A stretch of DNA of 24,468 nucleotides from a virus. Both the position numbers and the translations under genes were made by a program. Each line of letters opens with the position of its first letter. Positions within the stretch are counted from its first letter, which is position 1. The notes beneath the pieces are model-generated. The model saw nothing but the letters and a program-made list of their open reading frames with translations, had not been told where the DNA came from and searched no databases. Below, in pieces: positions 10,772 through 13,168 of the stretch. The stretch is taken from IMG/VR virus record IMGVR_UViG_3300044765_000056, positions 1 to 24,468 of that record; one strand, written 5' to 3'.

Positions 10772-12099
10772 GCGAGCAATTCAACATCGAGGCGGAACAG
10801 GCCGTAATCGGCGCCCTGTTGCGCGACAACGACGCATTCGATCGCATCCCGGCGCTGGACGCTGCTCACTTCTTCCGCGGCGACCACCGCAACGTGTTCG
10901 CGGAGATCGCCAAGCAACTGGCGGCAGGTAAGCGCGTCGACGCCGTGACGCTGGCCGAGCGCCTGGATCCGGAGATGCTGCCGTACCTCGCCAGTCTGCA
11001 CTCGTCGGCCGCCAGCGCCGCGAAGATCGAGTACCACGCAAGCATCGTGATCGAGAAGGCAACGCGTCGCGCGCTGTCCGCTCTGGCGATCGACCTTGCT
11101 GCCGATGCTGAATCGGGCAAGGACAGCGCCGAGACCATAGCCGACGCCGCCGCCAAGCTGGACGCCATGGCCCAGCGCAAGACGACCCGCGACCCGCGCC
11201 GCCTGGATGAAACGCTGACCGAGTATTTGACCCTACTGCAGCAGCGCCTGGACGGCAAGGTTCGTCCGATCCCGACCGGTTATCGGCACCTGGACGAGAT
11301 GCTCGACGGTGGCCTGGAGCGCGGCACGTTGACGGTGATCGCCGGCCGCCCCGGCACTGGCAAGACCGCCGCGGGCCTCGGCATCTGCCGCAACGCTGCG
11401 CGCGACTACTCTGCCCTGTTCCTGTCGATGGAGATGTCGACGAATCAGGTCAACGACCGCAACATCTCCGCGCTGGCCAAGGTCGACATGTCGTGGCTGC
11501 GAAAGCCGGGCGAAGGCCGCGATGACACCGAGCGCTGGAACGCTATCACGAACGCCACGATCAACTCGCGCCGGCTGAACCTGTTCATCGACGACCAGAC
11601 TGGCCTGAGCCTACCCGAGATCCGCGCCAAGGCCCGCAAGATCAAGCGGCAGCACGGCTGCGACATCATCTGCATCGACCAGTTGTCGTTCATCACCGGC
11701 GCCAAGTCCGACAAGCTGCACGAGGCGATGGGCGAGTACACGCGCGGCCTGATCGCCTTGGGCAAGGAGCTCGACGCCGCAATCATCCTGCTGGCCCAAC
11801 TGAACCGGGAATGCGAGAAGCGTAACGACAAGCGCCCGATCATGTCCGACCTGGGCGTGTCCGGATACATCGAGCAGGACGCCGCCAACATCATCTTCCT
11901 GTACCGCGACGAACTCTGGAACCCGGAGTCCGAAGACCGCGGCATCTGCGAGTGGATCAGCGCGAAGCAGCGGCAAGGCCAGCCCGGCGTCGTCGGCCTG
12001 GCGTACATCGGCGCGCAAACCCGGTTCGAGGATCTGCCCTACCGCTGGCATCGTCGGGCACCGGTGAAGAAGGCATCGAGCCGCGGGGGATTTGAATGA
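10768..12099 (+). CDS. dnaB: DnaB-type replicative helicase
   Basis: A 443-aa helicase close to the usual 450-470 residues of DnaB. Residues 1-100 form the N-terminal DnaB domain (FNIEAEQAVIGALL...FFRGDHRNVFAEI). The RecA-like domain has Walker A GRPGTGKT (193-200), Walker B ICID (301-304) and the conserved AQLNRECEKR...SDLGVSGYIEQDA segment (about 343-372). It unwinds DNA ahead of the fork using ATP. The ATG at 10768 is chosen over longer forms because it overlaps the initiator stop as ATGA and gives the proper DnaB N-terminus. Having its own helicase makes the phage less dependent on host DnaB. Confidence 0.95.
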   Translation: MSEQFNIEAEQAVIGALLRDNDAFDRIPALDAAHFFRGDHRNVFAEIAKQLAAGKRVDAVTLAERLDPEMLPYLASLHSSAASAAKIEYHASIVIEKATRRALSALAIDLAADAESGKDSAETIADAAAKLDAMAQRKTTRDPRRLDETLTEYLTLLQQRLDGKVRPIPTGYRHLDEMLDGGLERGTLTVIAGRPGTGKTAAGLGICRNAARDYSALFLSMEMSTNQVNDRNISALAKVDMSWLRKPGEGRDDTERWNAITNATINSRRLNLFIDDQTGLSLPEIRAKARKIKRQHGCDIICIDQLSFITGAKSDKLHEAMGEYTRGLIALGKELDAAIILLAQLNRECEKRNDKRPIMSDLGVSGYIEQDAANIIFLYRDELWNPESEDRGICEWISAKQRQGQPGVVGLAYIGAQTRFEDLPYRWHRRAPVKKASSRGGFE

Positions 12100-12302
12100 C
12101 GCACCGCCCGCCCCAGCCCTGCGTCCTGTGCTCCCGCTTCCACCGCCATGCCGACGCACCTCCAGCCCACGGCTACTGCGAAGGCTACGAGAGGTTCCAG
12201 CGCCACGACGACACGAACGAGGCATGCCCGCTGTGGAAGGAAGCAAGCGACAAGGGCCAGCGCAGGGCATGGGCGGAACAACAACAGAGGGAGACAACGT
12301 GA
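12096..12302 (+). CDS. Small cysteine-rich protein, possible zinc binding
   Basis: A 68-aa protein with four cysteines, C9, C12, C28 and C44, spaced as CVLC...GYCEG...ACPLW, which may bind one zinc ion or an iron-sulfur cluster. It is coupled to the helicase (ATGA) and to the methyltransferase (GTGA). The tail is charged ([16 protein letters not shown]). Small proteins of this kind are common in phage early operons; function unknown. Confidence 0.65.
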   Translation: MTHRPPQPCVLCSRFHRHADAPPAHGYCEGYERFQRHDDTNEACPLWKEASDKGQRRAWAEQQQRETT

Positions 12303-13168
12303 CCGCCTACTACAACGAGATTGACGAATACGCGGCCCAGTGGCTGCGCAACCTGATCGCCGCAGGCCACATCGCGCCCGGCGAAGTCGACACAAGGAGC
12401 ATCGAGGATGTACACCCCGCCGACCTGGAGGACTTCACGCAATGCCACTTCTTCGCCGGCATCGGCGTCTGGTCCCTCGCGCTTCGCCGCGCCGGCTGGC
12501 CAGACGATCGATCTGTTTGGACTGGTTCCTGTCCGTGCCAACCTTTCAGCGCGGCAGGCAAAGGAGCTGGGTTTGCTGACGAGCGGCACCTATGGCCGCA
12601 CTTCCACTGGCTCATCGGTGAGCGTCGCCCTTCAGTCGTCCTTGGAGAGCAAGTTGCGAGCAAGGACGCAGATCCTTGGGTCGACCTTGTACACGCTGAC
12701 CTGGAGGGGCTGGGTTACGCCTTCGGGTGTGTCCCGTTCCCGTCTGCGGGCATCGGCGCCCCGCACATCCGAGACCGGAATTATTGGGTGGCCCACGCCA
12801 CGCAGCGCGGACGGAGAGAAGAACGTGCGCACTCTGGAAGGTACGTTGGCGGAAATCGCCCGCAAGGGTTCGCCACAGGATCTGTGTCAGGCGGCGATGT
12901 TGGCGGGCTGGCACACGCCCGTGGTTCGCGACTGCAGGAACTCGGCGGGGGATGGGTCGAATCCTCGGGACTTGCCACGGCAGGTTTCTGGCGTGATGCC
13001 GATTGGCTGCCATGCCTCGATGGCCGGCGCCGTCCAGTTGAACCCGGCTCATTCCCGCTGGTTAATGGCACTCCCGCCCGAGTGGGACGCCTGCGCGCCT
13101 ACGGCAACGCGATCAACGCCGAAGCGGCGCGCGTCTTCATCGAATGCGTAATGGAGTGCCAACCATGA
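12299..13168 (+). CDS. DNA (cytosine-5) methyltransferase
   Basis: A 289-aa C5-cytosine methyltransferase starting with GTG at 12299 in a GTGA overlap. Motifs in order: I FAGIG (52-56), IV PCQPFS with catalytic C80 (79-84), VI as GEQV (116-119, a variant of ENV with the glutamate kept), VIII HIRDR (156-160), and X as [10 protein letters not shown] near the end. The expected reaction is SAM-dependent methylation of cytosine, for protection from host restriction. The region between VIII and X, where the target recognition domain should be, is short and glycine/arginine-rich. The codon third positions here have unusually low GC, and a second long ORF runs in another frame. The enzyme is small for the family and may be of weak or unusual specificity. 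Confidence 0.85.
12408..13151 (+). CDS. Alternate-frame gene inside the methyltransferase gene
   Basis: A 247-codon ORF lies wholly within the methyltransferase gene in another frame. Its ATG at 12408 has a strong AAGGAG (12394-12399) 8 nt upstream. From about residue 33 it reads like a real protein: [82 protein letters not shown] and near the end [21 protein letters not shown] recall similar sequences annotated as unknown phage proteins at methyltransferase loci. In the first 62 codons from 12503/12504, GC at the third position is about 71 percent in this frame and about 55 percent in the methyltransferase frame, by hand count. Residues 1-32 look like shadow sequence. Function unknown. Confidence 0.5.

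Follow-up and report, generated by a model that had tools for sequence, protein, structure and literature searches.

An Overprinted +1 Frame in a Phage C5-Cytosine Methyltransferase Gene Probably Encodes a Second Subunit of the Enzyme

Introduction

We analyzed a whole 24,468-nt stretch of viral DNA (IMGVR_UViG_3300044765_000056, hereafter the window), in which a C5-cytosine DNA methyltransferase gene (frame A) contains a long +1-shifted ORF (frame B). The question raised by this locus is whether frame B is a gene kept by selection or a shadow of the methyltransferase and, if it is a gene, what its product contributes. The literature searched, mostly papers outside subscription, contained no account of this overlap.

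Locus and Start Signal of Frame B

The genes surrounding the methyltransferase in the window were of phage type: replication initiation protein, DnaB-like helicase, terminase, portal, scaffold, and major head protein. The helicase stop and the methyltransferase start are both overlapped by an intervening small ORF of 68 aa with Cys/His motifs (12096–12302, plus strand). Frame A matched PF00145 (E 3e-12) and phrog_363 (E 5e-89); the Pfam match plus the motif X sequence characterize it as a chain with motifs I–VIII and X. The coordinates of frame B and the spacing of its Shine–Dalgarno sequence were as described in the first-pass annotation (Table 1), and the protein-like motifs cited there for B were found in the sequence. 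The third-position GC counts given from position 12503 were reproduced exactly (44 of 62 codons in B versus 34 of 62 in A); over the whole overlap, they amounted to 180 of 247 versus 161 of 247.

Table 1. Features of the methyltransferase locus in the window.
Feature	Coordinates	Strand	Basis
Frame A, C5-cytosine DNA methyltransferase, 289 aa, GTG start	12299..13168	+	PF00145, phrog_363
Frame B, overprinted 247-aa ORF, ATG start, proposed recognition/motif-IX subunit	12408..13151	+	phrog_1008, stops, rates
Shine–Dalgarno AAGGAG of frame B, 8 nt before ATG 12408	12394..12399	+	Sequence
B N-terminal part, over A motifs I–VIII	12408..12784	+	Rates constrained in both frames; AlphaFold2
B recognition cassettes (proposed); A here Gly/Arg-rich, near-neutral	12786..12985	+	Rates, cassette order
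Cassette start in B, GWPTP	12786..12800	+	
Cassette start in B, GWHTP	12906..12920	+	
B motif-IX-like segment	13038..13085	+	Ungapped alignment to L282/L284, register by eye; actinophage L180
A motif, PCQ	12533..12541	+	
A motif VIII-like, GAPHIRDR	12755..12778	+	
A motif X, YGNAI	13100..13114	+	

The start codon of B was ATG in 137 of 149 relatives. The Asp codon of A that forms this start was GAT in 139 of 147 cases versus 38% GAT among the Asp codons of these genes, and the Arg codon holding the Shine–Dalgarno sequence was AGG in 84 of 148 (57%) versus 8% among all Arg codons there. Many Firmicute relatives had their own Shine–Dalgarno/start pair near the beginning of B. The conservation of both signals argues for independent initiation over frameshifting, and B is probably translated from them.

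Openness of Frame B among Relatives

The length of B by itself is weak evidence because the window is GC-rich and longer shadow ORFs are present in it, e.g., one of 480 aa on the minus strand (457–1899). Synonymous shuffling of this one gene gave P = 0.01 for zero stops in B. The comparison set consisted of 80 loci from viral contigs, retrieved with A as the sole query, and the window (81 sequences); expected stops were obtained by shuffling the synonymous codons of A. Frame B contained 5 stops versus 241 expected and was fully open in 76 of the 81 sequences; the +2 frame had no stop deficit (1100 observed versus 892 expected). Three of the five stops in B were located at codon 2, right after the first Met and with the next ATG just downstream, one preceded the usual end by two codons, and another (L073) was internal; only one of the five truly interrupts B. 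The frame was open in relatives of 39–59% GC, mostly with P ≤ 0.003, and in those of 39–50% GC it was longer than nearly all shuffled versions. The free occurrence of alternate-frame stops in homologues, by which the first-pass annotation would have recognized a shadow, was not observed; the frame is open beyond chance (5 versus 241).

Selection on Both Frames

Two-frame rates were calculated from 57 independent pairs in which no sequence appeared more than once and which took in loci retrieved with B in addition to those retrieved with A. Each single-base change was classified by its consequence for each of the two frames; the rates are counts, with transitions given a fixed weight of 2 and local identity filtered at 60%. 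The dN/dS-like ratios were NN/SN for A and NN/NS for B or the +1 frame. Upstream of B, the ratio was 0.07 for A and 3.78 for the +1 frame, with 46 stop-making changes. Over motifs I–VIII, A had 0.08 (0.07–0.09) and B 0.28 (0.22–0.34), with 2 stop-making changes; in the cassette region, A had 0.88 (0.60–1.33) and B 0.09 (0.07–0.12), with none; in the tail, the values were 0.12 and 0.29, respectively. Changes synonymous in A and nonsynonymous in B were found at 422 of ~1042 sites before B versus 35 of ~1208 in the cassettes. The flanks of B within the same gene served as the main control since neighboring genes gave just 6 pairs (+1 NN/NS 0.59, 0.29–1.15).

Frame B is under constraint along its whole length; both frames are constrained over motifs I–VIII and in the tail, and between motif VIII and the tail only B is. 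Near-neutral dN/dS in the alternate frame, which according to the first-pass annotation would mark a shadow, was not observed: the protein of this frame is under purifying selection in all three regions (0.28, 0.09, and 0.29; flank 3.78) and in the Firmicute set described below. Since A is near neutral where B is strongly constrained, it is the Gly/Arg-rich "recognition region" of A that is a shadow, and the real variable region, consisting of the cassettes and the motif-IX-like segment, is in B. The suggestion that the overlap could explain the odd composition of this region therefore holds in a stronger form than proposed. Over the cassettes, A contained 0 stops in 71 loci versus 121 expected when the codons of B were shuffled; the need of A to stay open here fits its having to reach motif X.

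A second set, composed mostly of Lactobacillus phages (Firmicute), gave B ratios of 0.32 over motifs I–VIII and 0.06 after them, and the frame was unconstrained before B. Relative to the comparison rate, stop-making changes amounted to 0.57 before B and 0.00 in B over motifs I–VIII, and the constraint stopped at the boundaries of B. In the Firmicute relatives, A kept some constraint after motif VIII (0.21), so it may still contribute there. The earlier claim of long-term selection on both frames is borne out by the stop deficit, the two-frame rates, and this independent set.

Sequence and Predicted Structure of Protein B

Protein B matched the profiles phrog_1008 (E 3.1e-29, residues 7–179) and phrog_31772 (E 6.5e-19), both labelled "DNA methyltransferase"; searches of Pfam and NCBIfam with B, as well as a PDB sequence search with its alignment, gave no match. 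The protein contained one to four units of ~36 residues starting with W-P-T-P-xxx-D, and a given unit was found at different places and in different order among phages (the cassette parser covered ~63 of 150 proteins). B closes with LNPxxxxWLMGxPxxW; the pattern NPxxxxWLMGxP was in the +1 frame of 187 loci, compared with 4 for frame 0 and none for the +2 frame. This segment was aligned, ungapped and in a register chosen by eye, with motif IX (RRLTPxECERLMGFP) of the single-frame enzymes of loci L282 and L284; Pfam HMM and PDB sequence searches did not detect motif IX in B. The segment is therefore a candidate motif IX, assigned by its position and by this hand-chosen alignment, and is termed motif-IX-like.

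The AlphaFold2 model of B had a mean pLDDT of 59; its most confident part was the N-terminal segment (pLDDT ~80–92), with a helix at B 70–90 and a beta hairpin at B 96–116. Foldseek comparison of the model with the PDB gave no usable match. In the AlphaFold2 model of a single-frame actinophage relative, the catalytic part matched M.HhaI, and the cassette region was of low confidence. Alignment of B with actinophage methyltransferases by hhalign covered only the 27-column WLMGxPxxW segment (probability 34, E 4e-4). On the profile evidence, phrog_1008 is the stronger link: this family was common to B of the window, gp61 of Gordonia phage Float294, and the C-terminal half of all 24 proteins of the actinophage set, and B is thereby homologous to in-frame recognition regions. 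B thus appears not to be an unrelated unknown protein but to contain the homologue of the recognition region and motif IX of this class of enzymes. The first-pass annotation, which had likened B to unknown proteins at phage methyltransferase loci, was right about selection and has to be revised in this respect.

Other Gene Arrangements and Distribution

In actinophage IrishSherpFalk, gp71 contained the units and NPAFPEWMMGWPTGW in frame between motifs VIII and X, as an ordinary single-chain methyltransferase, and in actinophage L180 the motif-IX-like segment was in frame with motif X. In Float294, the cassettes, WMMG, and motif X were all carried by gp61, an ORF of its own in the +1 frame that shares 14 nt with the catalytic ORF. 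Where the recognition region is in frame with A (L188–L217, mostly actinophages), the N-terminal part of the +1 ORF was still stop-free and under constraint, with NN/NS of 0.28 versus 0.75 and 1.00 in the flanks. An intein-like insert was found in EBPR siphovirus 2 (L186, 636–3131); it splits frame A between CPC and CQPF and also interrupts frame B, which is intact again downstream, so that the start of B in this phage would have to be located within the DNA encoding the intein. In a distant branch of C5 methyltransferases, +1 ORFs were present in L268 (2694–3143), L282 (2772–3155), and L284 (2790–3173); they shared the motif LSxKACEGILRRAxRRGKxLP, had a weak match to phrog_16143 ("DNA methyltransferase"), and possibly represent a second overprinted methyltransferase partner.

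Matches to frame B were found in phages of Escherichia, Klebsiella, Salmonella, Edwardsiella, Pseudomonas, Burkholderia, Xanthomonas, Rhodobacter, and Vibrio, among others; direct reading of the sequences showed the overlap of B with A in phages of Lacticaseibacillus and Paenibacillus and in a cyanophage. The family was present in 5 genomes of a 274-genome sample. The overlapping ORF is annotated as "putative Mte8-like protein" in K1ind2; both frames are annotated as methyltransferase in PhiXhv-18 and Paenibacillus phage Tadhana, and only B is annotated in Pseudomonas phage PMG1. The phrog_1008/"Mte8-like" phage proteins, which B of the window resembles (E 3e-29), were encountered as annotations only, the papers searched mentioning neither selection nor a subunit role nor the overlap.

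Comparison with Known Systems

The gene of the small subunit of M.EcoHK31I overlaps that of the large subunit in another frame. This enzyme (YGGCCR) consists of two polypeptides, the larger with motifs I–VIII and X and the smaller with motif IX (PMC3404938). Compared by motif layout, A and B would have the same split between chains; however, the recognition domain of M.EcoHK31I was predicted in the large subunit, whereas here selection places recognition in the small overprinted chain, with exchangeable cassettes. In M.AquI, the catalytic motifs are in one chain, and the distal variable region and motif IX are in the other (PMC3404938). A and B would resemble this separation too, but motif X is in the small subunit of M.AquI and stays in A in the window; gp62/gp61 of Float294 are closer to the M.AquI layout. 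In multispecific phage C5 methyltransferases such as SPR, the stretch from motif VIII to motif IX contains a series of contiguous recognition units. The consecutive units of the window are similarly placed; those of SPR-type enzymes are in frame with the catalytic domain, whereas those of the window are in the overlapping frame. Multispecific phage enzymes are touched on in PMC2413257.

Discussion

A has motifs I–VIII and X with a near-neutral variable region, and B has the constrained region and the motif-IX-like segment, which suggests one enzyme in two chains. We consider it quite probable that A and B form a two-subunit C5-cytosine methyltransferase encoded by +1-shifted overlapping genes of the same strand, B most likely supplying the DNA-recognition half. 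Frame A would encode the catalytic subunit, with motifs I–VIII and X; frame B, which has its own ribosome-binding site, would be initiated separately from the internal ATG, yielding a subunit composed of an N-terminal scaffold, a variable array of ~36-residue cassettes for target recognition, and the motif-IX-like segment. The two polypeptides would assemble into a single active enzyme, cassette swaps in B would change the methylated sequence, and the methylation would probably protect phage DNA against host restriction.

The alternatives differ in what they make of B. A mere shadow ORF, conserved only through the methyltransferase, could be suspected from the window, where long ORFs are frequent owing to the high GC content and a stop-free B has P = 0.01; among relatives, however, it is contradicted by 5 stops against 241 expected, by the drop of A-synonymous/B-nonsynonymous changes from 422 of ~1042 sites to 35 of ~1208, by B being open at 39–50% GC, and by a constraint that ends at the boundaries of B. 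This reading was rejected on the stop counts, the two-frame rates, and the Firmicute set and is extremely improbable.

The recognition part of B might instead be reached by programmed +1 frameshifting from A, giving a fusion of A (motifs I–VIII) and B (recognition) and no free B. The recognition segment is indeed in frame with the catalytic half in actinophages, and the most constrained part of B begins right at motif VIII; yet openness and constraint of B extend from its ATG across motifs I–VIII, where frameshifting requires neither, its ATG and Shine–Dalgarno sequence are conserved, and B ends without motif X, so the fusion would lack this motif. We regard such a fusion as unlikely. Only slightly less unlikely is the reading that B functions apart from the methyltransferase (e.g., as an anti-defence or regulatory protein) and merely arose in its frame. 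B has no solved relative or PDB fold match, and homologues of its N-terminal part are known only from this arrangement, as such an origin would allow; against it, the C-terminal half of B shares a published family with the in-frame recognition region plus motif X of actinophage methyltransferases, and A is unconstrained in exactly the recognition region of B.

If B is the recognition subunit, as the two-subunit reading proposes, the annotated recognition region of very many such genes is in the wrong frame, and the enzyme cloned from a recoded frame A would be dead or unspecific; hundreds of phage enzymes with single-frame annotation would appear to lack a subunit. The pair is an unusually clear case of overprinting, ~250 codons long and kept from Proteobacteria to Firmicute phages, and since the textbook frame is the shadow in one region, it is a good test bed for the origin and maintenance of overlapping genes. 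More tentatively, and with a slight leaning against so broad a generalization, phages of several phyla may hold the recognition unit in an overlapping frame, as exchangeable cassettes each reading its own DNA sequence, with the in-frame region reduced to a near-neutral linker; specificity could then be re-shuffled without touching the catalytic subunit.
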